The notes below the pieces were generated by a model. That model was not told the DNA's origin and ran no database searches. It was given only the letters and a program-made list of their open reading frames with translations. Below are positions 17,557 through 31,097 of a stretch of 64,000 nucleotides of DNA, one piece after another. A program made the position numbers and the translations under genes. Origin of the DNA: Solobacterium sp. (GTDB taxonomy: Bacteria; Bacillota_I; Bacilli_A; Erysipelotrichales; Erysipelotrichaceae); assembly GCA_017469885.1 (NCBI GenBank), contig JAFUFO010000021.1:124001-188000 (forward strand), read 5' to 3'. Every line of letters begins with the position of its first letter. Within the stretch, counting starts at the first letter, position 1.

Positions 17557-17971
17557 CCACCTGCCAGGCAGGTGGAAGGCAGGTGCTTCTTGTAGAAAGA
17601 AGCACCCCATCTGACTAAGATGGTGAGTGTCGAAGTCACCAGAATAGAAAGATGAGGTGTTTAATATGGCCAAGAAGTACGATTCATTGGCACACACAAA
17701 GTATTATACAAGATACCATATCGTGTTCACTCCAAAGTACAGAAGAAAGGTAATTTATAATCAGTTGCGGAGAGACATCGCAGAATATATCAAGAGACTG
17801 TGCGCATACAAGGGAGTGGAGATAATCGAAGGGCATATGATGCCAGACCATGTGCACATACTAGTGTCGATACCACCGAAGATTTCGGTAAGCAGTTTCA
17901 TGGGATATCTGAAGGGAAAGCTGTCGATGATGATCTTTGAAAAACACGGGAACTTAAAGTACAAATTTGGC
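17557..17971 (+). mobile_element. IS200/IS605-type remnant, left end and 5' part of tnpA
   Basis: The left end shows the subterminal hairpin CCACCTGCC-A-GGCAGGTGG (17557-17575) and a second hairpin TGCTTCTT / AAGAAGCA just before the transposase start, both typical of IS200 leaders. Transposase coding sequence runs to about 17971 and then stops matching. No right end is visible. The outer left boundary is uncertain by a few tens of bases because IS200 elements make no target duplication. Confidence 0.8.
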
Positions 17972-18082
17972 AAGTGGAACTTCACGAAGTTTGTGATCGA
18001 CCGTGAAGGCAATGTCGTCGCCCGCTTTGAGCCGACTGCCGATATGGAAAAGGTCGAGGCATGCATTAAATCGCTGCTTTGA
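17666..18082 (+). pseudogene. Chimera: IS200 TnpA N-terminus fused in frame to glutathione peroxidase C-terminus
   Basis: Open frame of 138 residues. Residues 1-102 match IS200 Y1 transposases, including YHIVFTPKYRRKVIYNQ and the HUH motif H62-V-H64 within GHMMPDHVHILV. From K103 the protein changes to KWNFTKFVIDREGNVVARF, the well-known C-terminal strand and tail of glutathione peroxidases, to the stop. The catalytic Tyr of TnpA is lost, and the peroxidase lacks its N-terminal active-site Cys/Gln. Codon use also shifts at the joint, from AT-rich to GC-rich like the host. No peroxidase N-terminus is found upstream. I read this as a deletion that joined IS and peroxidase gene. Start is ATG 17666 with GATGAGG 8 bases before. 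Confidence 0.85.
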
Positions 18083-19805: not shown

Positions 19806-20534
19806 ATGACAAACACGGAACTGAAAAAAGGAAGCGGGCAGAAGCCCCTCTGGAGTCAGCTGTTTGAGATTCTGAAGGAACGTATTACGGAGAATGTCTA
19901 CGAAGCCGGAAGTGTTCTGCCGACCGAGGCGGAACTGATGAAGGAATTCTCGGTTTCCCGCATTACCGTCCGTCAGGCAATGAACCGGCTGCTTCAGGAA
20001 GGCATGATTTCAAGACGGCGCGGAAGCGGTACGATCGTACTGCCGACCCCGGGAAACCTGTCCACCAGTTTTCATTCCACGTTTAAGGGGGAAGAGCACA
20101 ATCACCTGAAGGACCGCAGAGTGCTTTCCGTCGCGTATGAGACGGTTCCTCAGGAAGCTGCCGATTTCTTCGGCACCTCCGTGAACCAGCCGCTGCTTAC
20201 GCTGGTCCGCGAATCCTATCTCAACGGGAAACCGGTTGTCCGGTATGTGACCTATCTGAGTCCCGCGTGCATGGTGAAGGACACGGACGATGTGTCCGGA
20301 TCGCTGTATGAACTGCTGGAGGAACTGGGTGATCCGATTGACCGGGTCACGGAAGTCATTACCGCATTCATTGCCGGACCGGAAGAAAAGAGCATCTTCC
20401 ATCTTGAAAACGACACAGCGCTGATCCATCGTATCCGGAAGGGATACAGCCGGGAAAATCCGATCGAGTATACCGATTCCCTGTATCTTTCCGATGACTA
20501 TCAGCTGACGATTGAAGAATCATTTACGAAATAA
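19806..20534 (+). CDS. GntR-family regulator, HutC/UTRA subfamily
   Basis: Protein of 242 residues. Winged helix-turn-helix at about 15-80 with YEAGSVLPTEAELMKEFSVS and RQAMNRLLQEGMISRRRGSG. The UTRA effector domain follows (about 95-240) and usually binds a sugar phosphate or amino sugar. Its downstream neighbours are two hexose-phosphate isomerases, starting 22 bases later, so it probably controls them and senses one of their substrates. The palindrome at 19733-19746 suits autoregulation. Confidence 0.9.
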   Translation: MTNTELKKGSGQKPLWSQLFEILKERITENVYEAGSVLPTEAELMKEFSVSRITVRQAMNRLLQEGMISRRRGSGTIVLPTPGNLSTSFHSTFKGEEHNHLKDRRVLSVAYETVPQEAADFFGTSVNQPLLTLVRESYLNGKPVVRYVTYLSPACMVKDTDDVSGSLYELLEELGDPIDRVTEVITAFIAGPEEKSIFHLENDTALIHRIRKGYSRENPIEYTDSLYLSDDYQLTIEESFTK

Positions 20535-20556: not shown

Positions 20557-22053
20557 ATGGGACCGATCAAGGTAAGCCCGATGTATGACAAAACGATCTG
20601 GGCAGGCGATAAACTGGCAAAGATCCGTAATCGTGTATGGAACGGCGAAGGCACGTCCTGGGAAATCAGCGTGCATCCCTATGCACAGTCTGTGGTCAGT
20701 GAAGGAGAGCACAAAGGAAAAACCATTGCGTCCTTAATCGAACACGACCATGACGGCATTCTCGGCCCCGGCGTTACGGATGAAGATCTGTTGCGCTGTG
20801 CCTTCCTTGACGCAAAGGATTCACTTTCCGTACAGGTTCATCCCGGGGAGCGCTATGCCCGGGAAAACGAGAACGACCACGGGAAAACCGAGGCCTGGTA
20901 TATTCTTGACGCAGAGGAAGGCGCAGAGCTCGTTGCGGGCTCGGACTTCCGTTCCAGAGATGAGATTCAGGCATCGATCGATGCCGGTACGATCGAAGAT
21001 CATCTGTACCGGATCCCGGTAACGGAAGGAGATTTTGTCCAGGTCCCAAGCGGAACCCTGCATGCATTGGGTGCGGGAATTCTGGCACTGGAGATCGGCA
21101 CGAACTCCAATACGACCTACCGGTTCTACGACTACAACCGCAGAGACAAGGACGGCAATCTCCGCCCGCTTCACATTGCGAAGAGTCTGGATGTCGTTGT
21201 CTGCGGACAGACCGGCGTGAAAGTTTCCACACCGGTGGATCATCAGCCGAAAGTAAAACGGATCGCAGATTTCCCGGAATACAGCGTGGACCTGATCGAT
21301 GTAAACGGGAAATATACACTTCCCGCATGGCCTGCTTCCTTCCGGACGCTGTCCTGTGTTAAAGGAGAGGCAGTGCTCACCTGTGAAGGGGAGACCTCAG
21401 ACCTTGCATTTACGGAGTCGGTATTCCTGCCGGCATCCTGCGGAGAGATCACTGTGAAAGGAGACTGCCGCCTGCTGGTCGGCACCCCGAAGCCGCGGGC
21501 CGTCATGGATATCAAGGAACCGCGCTTTCTGACAGACTTCTCGAAGACCGCTTCTTCCGTTACGCTCTCACACGGCGTCAAGAAGCTGAAGGATATCGCT
21601 TCCTACTATATCAATACGGAAGGTGTGGATCCGGAGACGGTGCTGTATGAAGTGCAGTGCGATGACGGCAATCCGGAAGTCCCAGGCTCGCTGTCCTACG
21701 GCCTTACAACGATTTATCCCAACCGCATCAATGACGAGTGTCCGTTTACCAAGGGACACTGGCATATGGATGAAAGTGTAGAGGAAGTCTATGAAGGTGA
21801 AGCCGGAACCGGACTTCTGATGTATATGAACCATGACGGTATGACCTGGTGTGAAAAGGTATTCCCGGGCAGTGTGCATCACATTGCGGGAACACTGGCG
21901 CACCGGCTGATCAACACCGGTGATGAGCCACTGAAGGTACGGGCAGTCTGGCCGCCTTCGGCAGGACACAACTATGACGAGGTAATCGCGCATCCGTTTG
22001 GATTCCGCGTATTCCGGAAAGGAAATGAACTGAAGGTAATTCCCCATGAGTAA
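20557..22053 (+). CDS. Fused mannose-6-P isomerase and cupin-type glucose-6-P isomerase
   Basis: Protein of 498 residues with two metal-dependent cupin enzymes in tandem. Residues 1 to about 320 are a class I mannose-6-phosphate isomerase with zinc ligands Q93 and H95 (SVQVHP), E112 (KTEAW) and H169 (VPSGTLHALG). Residues about 335-498 match the cupin phosphoglucose isomerase of archaea: H401, H403, E410 and H449, with the same spacing as H88, H90, E97 and H136 of Pyrococcus furiosus PGI, plus KGHWH, PGSVHHIAGTLAHR and the AGHNYDEV tail. Together the halves would link mannose-6-P, fructose-6-P and glucose-6-P. AGGAGGAG precedes the start. It overlaps the next isomerase gene by 8 bases. Confidence 0.9.
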   Translation: MGPIKVSPMYDKTIWAGDKLAKIRNRVWNGEGTSWEISVHPYAQSVVSEGEHKGKTIASLIEHDHDGILGPGVTDEDLLRCAFLDAKDSLSVQVHPGERYARENENDHGKTEAWYILDAEEGAELVAGSDFRSRDEIQASIDAGTIEDHLYRIPVTEGDFVQVPSGTLHALGAGILALEIGTNSNTTYRFYDYNRRDKDGNLRPLHIAKSLDVVVCGQTGVKVSTPVDHQPKVKRIADFPEYSVDLIDVNGKYTLPAWPASFRTLSCVKGEAVLTCEGETSDLAFTESVFLPASCGEITVKGDCRLLVGTPKPRAVMDIKEPRFLTDFSKTASSVTLSHGVKKLKDIASYYINTEGVDPETVLYEVQCDDGNPEVPGSLSYGLTTIYPNRINDECPFTKGHWHMDESVEEVYEGEAGTGLLMYMNHDGMTWCEKVFPGSVHHIAGTLAHRLINTGDEPLKVRAVWPPSAGHNYDEVIAHPFGFRVFRKGNELKVIPHE

Positions 22054-24802: not shown

Positions 24803-24863
24803 ATAATGTCATTGAGTGGAAGGGCAGAACATGAATTCATGGTGCACTTCCGGAGGAGAGAAA

Positions 24864-25295
24864 ATGAGATATGTAGTTATGGTAAGTCACGGTGACTTTG
24901 CACCGGGACTTCGGTCTGCCGTCTTCATGATGACCGGACCGAAAGACGAAGTTCTTTGCACCAACCTTCGCGCTGATATGAGCGCAGATCAGTTCCAGGA
25001 CAATTTCCGTGAACTGGTGGCTCCGATTTCCGCGGATGACGAAGTAATCCTTCTCTGCGATATTCTCGGCGGTTCTCCGATGACCAAGTCTCTCGAAGTT
25101 CTGTCGGAACGCGGACTGCTCGACACTGCGATCGTTCTCACCGGCATGAACATGCCGATGGCTATGACAGCGGTCATCATGAAGGACGTTCTCGAAGACA
25201 GAGAAGCACTGAAGAACACAATTATCAGCGAAGCACAGAATGCAGTCGCAGAGTTCAAGCCGGTTGCGGATGAAGACTCTGACGACGATATCTGA
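24864..25295 (+). CDS. PTS mannose/fructose/sorbose family IIA component
   Basis: Protein of 143 residues. VSHGDFAPG places the phosphorylated histidine at H9; LCDILGGSPMTKSLEVL and VLTGMNMPMA are further IIA(Man) signatures. It takes phosphate from HPr and passes it to IIB in the cytoplasm. The start is the ATG after GGAGGAGAGAAA, not an earlier in-frame ATG at 24816. An acidic tail (DEDSDDDI) ends the protein. First gene of the IIA-IIB-IIC-IID operon. Confidence 0.93.
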   Translation: MRYVVMVSHGDFAPGLRSAVFMMTGPKDEVLCTNLRADMSADQFQDNFRELVAPISADDEVILLCDILGGSPMTKSLEVLSERGLLDTAIVLTGMNMPMAMTAVIMKDVLEDREALKNTIISEAQNAVAEFKPVADEDSDDDI

Positions 25296-25352: not shown

Positions 25353-25850
25353 ATGATCACATTTATGCGTGTTGACGACCGTATCATTCACGGTCAGATT
25401 ATCACCCGCTGGTCCAAGGAATATCCTTGTGACGGTATCATCGCGGTAAATGACAAGGCAGCTACGACTCCCGTTCTGAAGCAGAGCTTTGTCGCTTCCA
25501 CCGAGAAGAAGGTATTCATCTGGACGATGGAACACTTCCTCGAGAATGCAAAAAAGGTATTTGAGAGCCCGAAGCACTACTTCCTGATCACAAAGAACCC
25601 GCTCGACATGGCTACCATTCTCGTTGACAACGGCTTCGTTCCGAACAACGTTAAGGAACTCGTCATTGGTCCGTGCAACGATCGTCCGGGAACTGTCAAG
25701 CTCGGAAACAACCAGTCCATCACTCAGGAAGAAGCAGAAGCTCTTGAGAAGATCTGGAAGAAGGGCTACACCGTTACATTCGCGCTCGTTCGTGAGACAG
25801 CGATCGGTGAATGGCCGAAGTTCCGCGGCCAGTTCGGCTTCAAAGACTGA
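25353..25850 (+). CDS. PTS mannose/fructose/sorbose family IIB component
   Basis: Protein of 165 residues. FMRVDDRIIHGQIITRWSK near the N terminus carries the phosphohistidine H13. The rest has the usual IIB(Man) fold pattern, with LVIGPCNDRPGT and SITQEEAEAL. It receives phosphate from the separate IIA protein and gives it to the sugar brought in by IIC/IID. IIA and IIB are separate genes here, not one IIAB fusion as in E. coli manX. Confidence 0.93.
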   Translation: MITFMRVDDRIIHGQIITRWSKEYPCDGIIAVNDKAATTPVLKQSFVASTEKKVFIWTMEHFLENAKKVFESPKHYFLITKNPLDMATILVDNGFVPNNVKELVIGPCNDRPGTVKLGNNQSITQEEAEALEKIWKKGYTVTFALVRETAIGEWPKFRGQFGFKD

Positions 25851-25988
25851 GTACATCTCAGTAACGGAAACGAGAGTTTCCAAAACACTATGGTCAGATC
25901 CTGAATATCATAGGGGAGATCACGTTCAGGTATTTGATAAATAAATGCTATTAAAAAACAAAAATTAACTGAAAGGGGTTTGGATTTT

Positions 25989-26834
25989 ATGGCAATTTCT
26001 TGGTTCCAGGCTGCCATGCTCGGTATCATGTCCATGTTTGCGGCATCTACCATCGCCTGCCTGGGTACAACAGTTGGTAACTATACACTGAACCGTCCTC
26101 TGATCGCTTCCCTGTTCGTCGGCCTTATCATGGGCGATGTCAAGGGCTGCATTCAGATCGCGATTCCGATGCAGGTTATCTACATTGCATTAGTTACTCC
26201 CGGAGGAACAGTCGCTGCTGACCTCCGCGCTGTCTCCTACATTGGTATTCCTCTTGCATATGTAACCGCTAAGAGCCAGGGACTGGATCTCGGCGGCGCA
26301 GAAGCAGCTGGTATTGCCGGCGCAATGGGCGCTCTCGTAGGTACTGTCGGTACTGTCCAGTTCTACGGAACAGCTGTCATGAACCTCATCTGGCAGCACA
26401 TTGGATGGGCTGAACTCGATAAGGGCAACTTCAAGATCCTGACAGCTGTCGAAACATGGATGCCGATTATTTCGCACCTTGTTATCTCCTTCATCCCGGT
26501 CATGCTGATCAACCGTTTCGGATCCCAGGCTGTTTACACATTCCGTGAAGCACTCCCGATGGATTCCTGGTATATGAAGGCTCTCTTCACAGTCGGTAGC
26601 ATGCTGCCGGCAGTCGGAATGGGCATCCTGCTCAACTCCGTCGTTACGAAGCCGACCGATCTGATTTACTTCATTTTCGGTTTCACACTGGCTCGTTCCA
26701 TGGGTCTCACCCTGATCGCTGCTACCTGCGTAGCTGCAGTCTTCGCTCTGATTAACTTCCAGATGAAGATGAACGCCCTCGAAGCAAAGAAGGGCGGCGC
26801 AGTTGCTGTTGATGAAGAAGAGGAGGATATTTAA
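25989..26834 (+). CDS. PTS mannose family IIC component
   Basis: Membrane protein of 281 residues with about seven helices. Family features are ACLGTTVGNYTLNRPLIASL, VGLIMGDVKGCIQIAIPMQVIY, GGTVAADLRAVSYIGIPLA and a short acidic tail. It forms the sugar channel with IID. The ATG at 25989 with AAAGGGG about 10 bases upstream is preferred over an in-frame TTG at 25980. IID begins 2 bases after the stop. Alanine and glycine codons ending in T are much more common here than in neighbouring genes, as expected for very high expression. Confidence 0.93.
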   Translation: MAISWFQAAMLGIMSMFAASTIACLGTTVGNYTLNRPLIASLFVGLIMGDVKGCIQIAIPMQVIYIALVTPGGTVAADLRAVSYIGIPLAYVTAKSQGLDLGGAEAAGIAGAMGALVGTVGTVQFYGTAVMNLIWQHIGWAELDKGNFKILTAVETWMPIISHLVISFIPVMLINRFGSQAVYTFREALPMDSWYMKALFTVGSMLPAVGMGILLNSVVTKPTDLIYFIFGFTLARSMGLTLIAATCVAAVFALINFQMKMNALEAKKGGAVAVDEEEEDI

Positions 26835-26836
26835 CA

Positions 26837-27658
26837 ATGGCTGAAAAGAAAGTAACGAAGGCAACGTTAAACAAGTCCTTCTGGCGTTGGTTCTATGGAA
26901 ACCTGACCTGCTTCACACAGGAACACATGCAGACATTCGGTTACATGTGGTCCATGCTCCCGATTATCCAGGAACTCTATTCCGATAAGGCAGAGCAGCA
27001 GGAAAAGCTCCGTACATATTCGCCGTTCTTCAACACTGAGCCGCAGATCGGATCGATCGTTGTCGGTATCACAGCTGGTCTTGAAGAAGCTCGCGCTAAC
27101 GGCGCAGGCGACATCGATGATGAAATGATCAACGGTATCCGTGCTGGTCTCATGGGCCCGCTCGCTGGTATCGGTGACTCCCTCATCGTTGGTACATACA
27201 TTCCTATCCTGCTTGGTATCGCTCTTGGTTTCTCCAACGGCGGTTCCATCGCTGGTATCCTGTTCTACATCATCGTCTGGAACGCTACATCCATCTGGTT
27301 CCAGAGAACAATTTACATGAAGGGCTACGCTCTCGGCGGAAACGCTGTCGAAGTCATCGTTGGTGACCGTGCTACAGCGCTCCGTGAGTCCGCAGTTCTC
27401 CTCGGCCAGGTCATCGTCGGTGCGATGTCTGCTTCCTGGGTCAACATCACAACTTCCCTGAAGTTCGGTGAAGTCTCCCTCCAGAACAACCTGGATGGTG
27501 CTTACCCTGGTGTTGTCACCATGCTGTTCGTACTGCTTTGCTGGTACCTCATGTCCAAGAAGAAGATGTCCGCAGTCAAGGTCATGGGCCTCATGCTCCT
27601 GATCGCGATCGTCGGTGTTCTCCTCGGCGTCTTCGACCCGGGACTGTCCTACGAATAA
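26837..27658 (+). CDS. PTS mannose family IID component
   Basis: Protein of 273 residues. The soluble N-terminal part has FWRWFYGNLTCFTQEHMQTFGYMWSM and FFNTEPQIGSIVVGITAGLEE; GPLAGIGDSLIVGTYIPIL is the IID signature; three to four hydrophobic segments close the protein. It pairs with IIC in the membrane. Last gene of the operon, ended by a strong terminator. The transported hexose cannot be fixed from sequence; mannose, glucose or glucosamine are typical, and the upstream isomerases favour mannose or glucose. Confidence 0.94.
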   Translation: MAEKKVTKATLNKSFWRWFYGNLTCFTQEHMQTFGYMWSMLPIIQELYSDKAEQQEKLRTYSPFFNTEPQIGSIVVGITAGLEEARANGAGDIDDEMINGIRAGLMGPLAGIGDSLIVGTYIPILLGIALGFSNGGSIAGILFYIIVWNATSIWFQRTIYMKGYALGGNAVEVIVGDRATALRESAVLLGQVIVGAMSASWVNITTSLKFGEVSLQNNLDGAYPGVVTMLFVLLCWYLMSKKKMSAVKVMGLMLLIAIVGVLLGVFDPGLSYE

Positions 27659-28659: not shown

Positions 28660-29604
28660 TCAGCGGAGCTTGTCAACGAACTCGTTGAATTCGTCTTCCG
28701 TATATTCTTTCTGCTTGTCTTCGACCGCCGGTTTCTGATAGCCTTCGTTGTACTTCTCCAGCATTTCCTTATACAGTTCCTCATCTTCCGTATCGAAGAA
28801 CTGTCCGCCGAAGAGGGCTTCCGGATGGGCATTCAGTACTTCACGGCTGAGCGGACGGGCGCTCTGGCTTTCAATCCAGGAACCGCTTGGACCGACAACG
28901 CGAAGATCCTTGTTAATGTGGGAGTGACCTGGAAGATATTTATCCAACATCATGAAGTAGACATTCTCTTCCGGATACCAGGAGAGCTTGAACTTATCAC
29001 TGCAGTAGGGATAGTTCTCTGCCAGAACCGCAGCGGTTTCCTTTGTGAGGATGAACCACGGACTTCCGATCTTGATCTTTTCGTCCAATGTGCGGCGTAC
29101 GCCGATCAGATTCAGAAAGTTTGCGGCAGCCTTGGTATTCCATCTTACCCAGCGGTTGGTCGGAAACTGCAGCATATTCGTATAGGTGTAATACTTCAGT
29201 GTCTTCGGACGCAGGGCAGGATCTTCATCCTCGGTCCGGTCAATATAGTAGTAGTCACCGGGATTCTGTTCGAGGAAGGAAACGATCTCACTGCGCGGCT
29301 TCACCGGCAACATCCCCTCCGTCAGATTGATGAAGTAATCAAACTCCGCATCCTCATAGGCAAGCGCATCCGCCATCTGCAGTAAGGTTCCGCGTGCGAG
29401 CGACATATCGCCTTCCTGGGCGAATTCGAGCCGTCTTGAAATATGCACACGGCGGCTTCCCGCAAAGGCAACGGTCACCTCATCGCGGGCTTTATCATCG
29501 GACACCATAATGAATACATGATCGCCCTGTTTTACCAGCTGCTGGCATACCGGGACGATATCGTAGAACTTGCGTCCCGAACACATCAAATAAGCAATTC
29601 TCAT
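28660..29604 (-). CDS. GT14-like (core-2/I-branching type) glycosyltransferase
   Basis: Protein of 314 residues resembling bacterial members of the beta-1,6-N-acetylglucosaminyltransferase (branch) family, with AYLMCSGRKFYDIVPVCQQLV at the N terminus, YFINLTEGMLPVKPRSEIVSFLEQN, IGSPWFILTKETAAVLA and WYPEENVYFMMLDKYLPG. No membrane segment is seen. Such enzymes usually add a sugar to a surface glycan, but no capsule or teichoic genes adjoin it. The C terminus (about 275-314) is a Glu/Lys-rich extension. Assignment rests on recalled sequence pattern. Confidence 0.78.
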   Translation of the reverse strand: MRIAYLMCSGRKFYDIVPVCQQLVKQGDHVFIMVSDDKARDEVTVAFAGSRRVHISRRLEFAQEGDMSLARGTLLQMADALAYEDAEFDYFINLTEGMLPVKPRSEIVSFLEQNPGDYYYIDRTEDEDPALRPKTLKYYTYTNMLQFPTNRWVRWNTKAAANFLNLIGVRRTLDEKIKIGSPWFILTKETAAVLAENYPYCSDKFKLSWYPEENVYFMMLDKYLPGHSHINKDLRVVGPSGSWIESQSARPLSREVLNAHPEALFGGQFFDTEDEELYKEMLEKYNEGYQKPAVEDKQKEYTEDEFNEFVDKLR

Positions 29605-29715: not shown

Positions 29716-30663
29716 ATGAGCGATTACTGTGTAGGCATTGATATCGGCGGAACAACCGTAAAATGCGGCCTGTTCAAGGTGAACGGCGAACTGGAAGAGA
29801 AGTGGGAAGTACCCACCCGGAAAATTGACGCCGGCAAGTTCATTCTTTCGGATGTAGCGCACGAGCTGAAGAAGCATATGGAAGCGCGCTATCTCAGCAA
29901 TAAGGATCTGCGCGGTATCGGGATGGGTGTCCCGGGACCGGTGGAACCGGACGGACATGTCAGTGTCTGCGTCAACCTTGGCTGGAAGGATGTCTGGCCC
30001 GCAAAGGAAATGGAAGAGCTGATGGGCGGCGATGTCGTCTGTAAGGTCGGCAACGATGCCAACGTTGCGGCACTTGGTGAAATGTGGGTCGGCGGCGGTG
30101 TCGGTCATAATTCCATCGTCGCGGTTACCCTGGGAACCGGTGTCGGCGGCGGTATCATCATCGACGGAAAGATCGTTTCCGGTGCACACGGACTCGGCGG
30201 TGAAATCGGACATATGCATGTCCGGGATGATGAGCCGAATTTCTGCAACTGCGGCGGAAAGGGCTGCGTCGAGCAGGCGGCCAGCGCAACCGGTATCCTC
30301 AATGAGGCAAAGCGGGTGCTTGCGTCCACGGATGAGCCGTCTGCGATGCGTGAATACGGTGATGAACTGTCCTGCCGTCTGGTATGCGACTGCGCAAAGG
30401 CAGGCGACAAGCTTGCGCTGCGGGCTCTCGAAACCAGTCTTGATTATCTCGGACAGGGACTTGCGCTGGTAGCGCATGTCGTGGATCCGGAAGTATTTGT
30501 CATCGGCGGCGGTGTATCCAAGGCCGGTACGTATCTGATCAACCTGATCAAGGTTTATTTCCACAAATACACACCGATGTTCAAAAACCGTCCGGATATC
30601 GTACTTGCGACACTCGGCAATGATGCGGGCATCTACGGTGCGGCGCGTCTGGTGCTCGAATAA
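29716..30663 (+). CDS. ROK-family glucokinase
   Basis: Protein of 315 residues. DIGGTTVKCGLF binds ATP phosphate near the N terminus; GVPGPVEPDG and VGNDANVAALGE follow; GTGVGGGIIIDG, GEIGHMHV and the zinc motif CNCGGKGCVE (C177, C179, C184) define the ROK family; VIGGGVSKAG is near the C terminus. It phosphorylates free glucose to glucose-6-P in the cytoplasm. GGAGG lies 14-19 bases upstream, which is rather far, with AAAGGG as a closer alternative. It has its own promoter and terminator and complements PTS uptake by trapping unphosphorylated glucose. Confidence 0.93.
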   Translation: MSDYCVGIDIGGTTVKCGLFKVNGELEEKWEVPTRKIDAGKFILSDVAHELKKHMEARYLSNKDLRGIGMGVPGPVEPDGHVSVCVNLGWKDVWPAKEMEELMGGDVVCKVGNDANVAALGEMWVGGGVGHNSIVAVTLGTGVGGGIIIDGKIVSGAHGLGGEIGHMHVRDDEPNFCNCGGKGCVEQAASATGILNEAKRVLASTDEPSAMREYGDELSCRLVCDCAKAGDKLALRALETSLDYLGQGLALVAHVVDPEVFVIGGGVSKAGTYLINLIKVYFHKYTPMFKNRPDIVLATLGNDAGIYGAARLVLE

Positions 30664-30761: not shown

Positions 30762-31097
30762 ATGGAAGATATGAAGAACCGATCCATCCAGGATGAAACG
30801 CTGGAACAGATCAACGGCGGAAATGACGCGCAGTATGCGGAGATTTTTAACTATATCGCACTGCATGATCCCGCCGCATATGCCGCAATTCAGGCGAAGG
30901 ACCCGATGTGGAGAAGATCGTCTGCCATGCGTTACCTGTATGACCACGGCATTCCGGTCGTCATGACCGGGAATTTCCTCGGCGAAAACTTTTATGTGCT
31001 GGGTACGATGGACCTAGAGAAAAGGCAGATCACGGAAACACGCGACCGGCTCCATCATGCGCAGCTGATGGATATGATCCGTAAGACACTTGGCTGA
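30762..31097 (+). CDS. Small protein with double-glycine-leader-like N terminus
   Basis: Protein of 111 residues. The first 20 residues end in DETLEQINGG, closely matching the leaders cut after Gly-Gly by peptidase-containing ABC exporters of bacteriocins and signalling peptides. The remaining 91 residues (NDAQYAEIFNYIALHDPAAY onward) are not bacteriocin-like: charged, no Cys, no strongly hydrophobic core. No exporter or immunity gene adjoins it. AAGGAGAAAGA precedes the start. It may be exported, or the resemblance may be chance in a cytoplasmic protein. The next gene, a metallophosphoesterase, begins 32 bases later. Confidence 0.7.
   Translation: MEDMKNRSIQDETLEQINGGNDAQYAEIFNYIALHDPAAYAAIQAKDPMWRRSSAMRYLYDHGIPVVMTGNFLGENFYVLGTMDLEKRQITETRDRLHHAQLMDMIRKTLG

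Follow-up and report, generated by a model that had tools for sequence, protein, structure and literature searches.

The window analysed here, 64 000 nucleotides of a Solobacterium sp. contig (JAFUFO010000021.1, assembly GCA_017469885.1), contains a gene (positions 20557-22053, forward strand) that a first-pass annotation took to encode a mannose-6-phosphate isomerase fused to a cupin glucose-6-phosphate isomerase. It raises the question of whether such a fusion is genuine and what it does for a gut bacterium of the Solobacterium group whose relatives make the two isomerases as separate proteins. The gene is a single intact ORF of 498 codons with no internal stop. Residues 1-316 form a type I ManA unit and residues 317-498 a cupin phosphoglucose isomerase (cPGI), and the proposed fusion is borne out by sequence searches, active-site residues and predicted fold, with the best match in sequence and fold being PMI for the N-terminal half and cupin PGI for the C-terminal half. 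An assembly error, a frameshift or a chance fusion can be excluded, because seven genomes of the genus carry the same fused frame, down to about 60 % identity; the fusion is thus real and conserved.

The N-terminal ManA unit

The N-terminal unit is most closely related among known structures to the Bacillus subtilis ManA structure 1qwr, which it matches over residues 2-308 (phmmer against PDB, E-value 1.6e-55). It passes the Pfam cut-offs for PMI_typeI_cat narrowly (22.3 bits, cut-off 22) and for MPI_cupin_dom (44.3 bits, cut-off 27), and scores slightly under the cut-off of NCBIfam TIGR00218 (manA; 112.6 bits, cut-off 116.2). In the whole-protein model the pLDDT is about 90 over residues 1-310, and the best PDB match of this part is again 1qwr. 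The complete set of zinc ligands that had been read from the sequence (Q93, H95, E112 and H169) sits where it was placed, and K110, D192 and R195 are also retained; across the seven fusions no metal ligand varies, nor do most positions of the active site. Gln98, Lys116 and Glu118 of Bacillus PMI have been described as catalytic (PMC4718643), and these correspond to Q93, K110 and E112 of the fusion. The same study reported that a B. subtilis ManA with Lys at a conserved Gln position was inactive and that changing this Lys to Gln restored activity (PMC4718643); the fusion has Gln at that position.

In one respect this active site is not canonical. All of the fusions have Ala82 where canonical ManAs have Lys (Lys86 of Salmonella PMI, an equivalence drawn by eye by way of 1qwr), and position 80 is Arg; relatives of this Arg80 subtype carry Ala, Gly, Cys or Thr at position 82. 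A structure of a K86A mutant exists. Among the loci examined, which are not independent and have limited flanks, the Arg80 subtype is PTS-linked in 17 of 28 cases and the Lys82 type in none of 22.

The C-terminal cupin PGI unit

Residues 336-496 match the PGIs of Pyrococcus furiosus (E-value 6e-21) and Thermococcus litoralis (2e-19) in a phmmer search of the PDB, and the Pfam GPI family (PF06560) is matched with 45.3-47 bits (cut-off 20.7), with Cupin_2 reaching only 30.5. A profile built from 13 sequences of the clade found PGI chains at E ~1e-42, the next cupin following at 5e-4. In the whole-protein model, for which the alignment contained only four cPGI sequences, the C-terminal half has a pLDDT of about 30; the domain modelled alone has a pLDDT of 87.7 and a pTM of 0.85. 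This model superimposes on cupin PGI entries with Z-scores of 23-25 (VIA-align), the next fold scoring 12.8, and Foldseek concurs. Its top 11 PDB entries are all cupin PGIs, among them 3sxw, which is titled as an engineered protein, has a chain named glucose-6-phosphate isomerase and is given no weight here with regard to activity. Membership of another cupin family is ruled out by the GPI score, the clade profile and the fold comparison, in each of which cupin PGI came out best.

The metal ligands had been correctly located at H401, H403, E410 and H449, and in alignment their 2-7-39 spacing agrees with that of H88, H90, E97 and H136 of P. furiosus PGI; the pattern HxH-x6-E-x38-H is kept in 7/7 fusions. 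Eleven of the 12 P. furiosus PGI positions checked for metal, phosphate or proton-site roles are identical in all seven fusions, namely those four ligands together with Y52, T71, T85, G87, Y99, H158 and Y160, which we take to be substrate-site positions. The conserved residues of the window are accordingly Y364, T384, T398, G400, H401, H403, E410, Y412, H449, H471 and Y473.

Proton transfer in P. furiosus PGI has been credited to His158 together with Tyr152 (PMC6627849). The latter residue is replaced by Trp465 in the protein of the window, by Trp in each of the seven fusions and likewise in 56 of the 64 separate cPGI relatives; this Trp is spread through the clade and extends to the Bacteroidota. 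Tyr152 is not universal in PF06560, however: a Shinella homologue has Phe at this position, and among homologues carried on plasmids of Rhizobiaceae and others, residue 152 may be Tyr, Phe or Trp and residue 158 either His or Gln. Since both positions vary within the family, a Trp at 152 would not by itself exclude PGI activity. We note also that in six separate cPGI relatives (L123, L149, L153, L158, L163 and also L157) Arg stands in for the metal ligand H136 and further residues of the site are missing; to judge from these substitutions, such proteins are probably no longer PGIs.

Organization of the gene cluster

The fused gene is part of a cluster ordered regulator, fusion, long ManA-like gene, genes for two small proteins, and genes for EIIA, EIIB, EIIC and EIID of a mannose-family PTS, with a ROK glucokinase gene nearby (Table 1). 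From the fusion to EIID, the same gene order is seen in those fusion genomes whose contigs are long enough, and the GntR/UTRA regulator is found upstream of the fusion in five of the seven loci (the window, L082, L083, L084 and L086). This regulator had been called HutC-type; as a GntR protein with a UTRA domain it does belong to a HutC-like subfamily, but it scores 88 bits against a HutC equivalog cut-off of 220.

Table 1. Features of the isomerase-PTS cluster, in positions of the window
Feature	Position	Strand	Basis
GntR-family regulator with UTRA domain	19806..20534	+	Pfam GntR and UTRA
N-terminal unit of fusion: type I ManA, catalytic and second cupin domain	20557..21504	+	1qwr match, Pfam, ligands, model
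C-terminal unit of fusion: cPGI	21505..22053	+	Pfam GPI, fold, site residues, shared Met junction
Long-form ManA-like protein, 575 aa	22046..23773	+	8-nt overlap with fusion gene
Putative membrane protein, 188 aa	23819..24385	+	Conserved in fusion clusters
Conserved protein, 127 aa	24331..24714	+	Relative in Faecalicoccus cluster
PTS mannose-family EIIA	24816..25295	+	Pfam EIIA-man, 72.3 bits
PTS mannose/sorbose-family EIIB	25353..25850	+	Pfam PTSIIB_sorb, 117.7 bits
PTS mannose-family EIIC	25980..26834	+	Pfam EII-Sor, 174 bits
PTS mannose-family EIID	26837..27658	+	Pfam EIID-AGA, 289 bits
ROK-family glucokinase near cluster	29716..30663	+	NCBIfam TIGR00744, 279.7 bits (cut-off 260.35)

Several other genes lie close by. 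An IS200-like transposase gene (Pfam Y1_Tnp; 17657-18082) is located upstream of the cluster, and the reverse strand at 28660-29604 encodes a glycosyltransferase of the Core-2/I-branching type (Pfam Branch, 47.7 bits); many relatives likewise have, next to their cPGI/PTS clusters, genes whose start resembles that of this one. An ORF encoding 111 aa at 30762-31097 has no Pfam match and includes a stretch, LEQINGG, resembling the double-glycine leader of bacteriocin-type peptides.

In Faecalicoccus pleomorphus (L098) two separate genes of a single mannose-PTS cluster encode the counterparts of the ManA half (47 % identity) and of the cPGI half (36 %). This cluster also holds a PTS, whose EIIC is 65 % identical to that of the window, a long ManA, a GntR regulator, a relative of the 127-aa protein (48 % identity over 86 aa) and a weak relative of the 188-aa putative membrane protein (E-value 4e-06). 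More widely, 44 of 64 separate cPGI genes examined have a same-strand ManA gene within 1.5 kb, of the long form in 36 cases and of the short form in nine. These links, taken with the fusion, argue that the cPGI and PMI-type enzymes serve one route.

The long ManA-like neighbour and related modules

The gene following the fusion had been described as a second, overlapping ManA. The overlap is as stated and the protein is ManA-like, but it is divergent, belongs to a long form and reaches none of the Pfam or NCBIfam cut-offs; its ManA-like C-terminal part is preceded by an N-terminal stretch of about 210 aa in which Pfam finds no family. Such a gene is the next one downstream in all seven fusion loci, and is found directly beside many of the separate cPGI genes. 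The long forms retain the zinc ligands, and the position of the catalytic Lys110 is Gln in all of those typed (39/39); the long protein is likely not an ordinary PMI.

A second kind of module was also seen, in which a long cupin PGI (about 260 aa) stands in tandem with the short one (L088-L094, L112-L116 and others); a long cupin lies within 1.5 kb of 22 of the 64 short cPGIs. The long cupins keep the metal ligands, mostly have Phe at the position of His158, and have a longer spacing between the HxH motif and the Glu. At three loci (L113, L114 and L115) the long cupin, short cPGI, long ManA and GntR regulator adjoin genes that by eye encode GH1-type glycosidases, with a PTS EIIC-like gene beside the module in L113 and L114, a context hinting at a sugar derived from a beta-glycoside. 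On a plasmid of Parabacteroides distasonis (L105:4962-7251) a short cPGI, a ROK kinase and a long cupin occur with a sugar porter, a cellulase-like protein and a GH2 protein, and the cupin pair is therefore not confined to Firmicutes.

Distribution and origin of the fusion

Cupin PGIs had been presumed rare in bacteria, which is wrong for this family: 72 of its 273 genomes have a PF06560 match above cut-off. Fused frames are limited among these 273 genomes to the genus of the window (G000, G021, G022, G028, G032, G049 and G081). No fusion outside the genus was found among the matches in order, class and phylum samples, and a scan of genome contigs yielded two full-length matches, both in Solobacterium MAGs; such scans either sample their groups or reach no further than close relatives. 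No place in the plasmid records covers 80 % of the fusion, and no relative of the cPGI domain was found in viral contigs.

The seven fusions have a single origin, forming one clade with 100/100 support in a tree of 80 sequences. In the two nearest outgroups (L111 and L091), which belong to the same genus, a separate cPGI gene directly precedes the long ManA gene and overlaps it by about 8-14 nt, an arrangement similar to that of the fusion gene. The start Met of the former cPGI gene persists as Met317 (position 21505), a few residues past the natural end of ManA, and a matching Met is present at the junction in all seven fusions. The simplest history would be one joining of two genes from the same cluster, in an ancestor within the genus.

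Both units are under purifying selection. Between the window and G049, the closest pair, dN and dS are 0.016 and 0.29 for the N-terminal unit and 0.005 and 0.12 for the C-terminal unit, a ratio of about 0.05 in each, and these low values indicate that both halves are constrained; more distant pairs of fusions have dN of 0.1-0.4 with dS of 1.3 or more, which is near saturation.

Other isomerases in the genome

A survey for a conventional pgi, as the first-pass annotation had suggested, found one in the window genome (438 aa, PF00342 match), and such an enzyme is present in six of the seven fusion genomes, the exception being a genome that is only 80 % complete. The window genome also encodes a 622-aa protein (L171:2859-4727, reverse strand; G000:C33) with a Lys82-type ManA at its N-terminus and a ROK-like kinase at its C-terminus, the Lys82 and the ROK half both being recognized by eye; similar long ManA frames are found in G032, G049 and G081. 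Because the conventional PGI and the ManA-ROK protein are separate from it, basic glycolysis can do without the cluster. That, together with the variant nature of its enzymes, leaves a real chance that its substrate is not mannose.

Proposed function

The reading that we favour, as probable though well short of certain, is that the protein is a tethered isomerase of mannose-6-P, fructose-6-P and glucose-6-P that serves the mannose-family PTS and arose once by gene joining. The PTS would deliver hexose-6-P to the fused isomerase. In this protein the ManA unit would use a divalent metal, which is zinc in known relatives, to interconvert mannose-6-P and fructose-6-P, and the cPGI unit a second one, Mn or Fe in known relatives, to interconvert fructose-6-P and glucose-6-P. 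Conversion of mannose-6-P to glucose-6-P on one chain is plausible, and the chain may equilibrate the three phosphates at their point of entry; tethering might confer a benefit, possibly through channelling.

Trp465 in place of Tyr152, Ala82 in place of Lys86 and the separate PGI and ManA-ROK proteins leave room for another sugar phosphate. Another hexose phosphate may be what the cluster handles; in that case its ManA unit, its Trp-type cPGI and the long ManA that lacks the Lys would be subfamilies re-specialized for other epimers, and housekeeping would fall to the conventional PGI and the ManA-ROK protein. We regard this as rather unlikely, but it is the alternative to be taken most seriously: non-canonical residues occur in the sites of all three (Gln for Lys110 in the case of the long form), the genome has other enzymes for the ordinary reactions, and the module of long cupin, short cPGI and long ManA elsewhere adjoins GH1-type glycosidases and another PTS EIIC. 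However, every phosphate- and metal-binding position of PGI that was checked is retained, Trp-type cPGIs also adjoin canonical K82-type ManA genes (L088, L089, L127 and L130-L132), and the transporter beside the fusion is of the mannose family. A bolder proposal, which seems to us doubtful, is that the fusion, the long ManA-like protein and the cPGI/long-cupin module seen in related gut bacteria make up a PTS-linked pathway not yet described, whose three variant types of hexose-6-phosphate isomerase would act on a sugar phosphate other than mannose-6-P or glucose-6-P; if this is true, the fusion would be a new two-step aldose-ketose-aldose enzyme.

It is improbable that one half alone is catalytic, the other having been retired and retained for its stabilizing effect or as a sensor of a sugar phosphate. 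Each half does deviate from the canonical active site at one position, and the H136R change in six separate cPGIs of the family means that ligand loss happens in this group, but the invariance of the metal ligands and most site positions in both halves of the fusions, and the strong purifying selection on both, speak against retirement of either. The least probable reading, to which we give very little credence, is that the fusion is merely genetic and the halves are still made separately by internal initiation at Met317. The ancestral ATG is indeed retained throughout; however, most of the fusions have no Shine-Dalgarno-like sequence before it, whereas one is present (all read by eye) at the start of the fusion gene itself and at the separate sister gene in L091, and an internal start thus appears unlikely.

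Comparison with known systems

The cPGI unit resembles the P. furiosus and T. litoralis enzymes (PF06560) in fold (Z-score ~24, rmsd ~2 Å), in its metal ligands and their spacing and in the Tyr and Thr residues of the phosphate site. It differs in having only about 29 % identity to them, in its Trp and in being fused behind ManA, the archaeal enzymes being stand-alone proteins. Likewise, the ManA unit shares with the type I enzymes of B. subtilis (1qwr, ~36 % identity) and Salmonella (2wfp) the zinc ligands and the Gln, Lys, Glu, Asp and Arg residues, but is of the Arg80/Ala82 subtype, often PTS-linked and without an equivalent of Lys86, and has a second enzyme at its C-terminus. The ManA-ROK protein of the same genome also has a ManA unit at the N-terminus of a longer protein, although its partner reads as a ROK kinase and its ManA is of the canonical Lys type.

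The bifunctional PGI/PMI of TIGR02128 is one protein of SIS fold with a single active site, belonging to the PGI superfamily. The fusion, in contrast, is made of two units of the cupin superfamily, each with its own metal site, and neither Pfam nor NCBIfam gave a SIS or PGI-superfamily match in it, both units being cupin-type. Bifunctional PGI/PMI is found in archaea and in some bacteria (TIGR02128; cited in PMC7304191); should the activities predicted for the fusion hold, the two would be alike in that a single polypeptide catalyses both reactions. We found no description of a ManA-cPGI fusion in the searchable full-text literature on cupin PGI and PGI/PMI proteins, and within the literature searched it is undescribed.

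The protein naturally joins two isomerases that each have their own active site and share fructose-6-P. It connects the bacterial cupin PGIs, which have been little studied, with phosphomannose isomerases and a mannose-family PTS. It offers a handle on the role of cPGIs in genomes that have a conventional PGI, and on whether a cPGI functions without Tyr152. The cPGI/long-ManA module is present in many gut bacteria of the Erysipelotrichales type, where annotation would report housekeeping isomerases; its active sites and genomic context suggest instead a dedicated sugar route.
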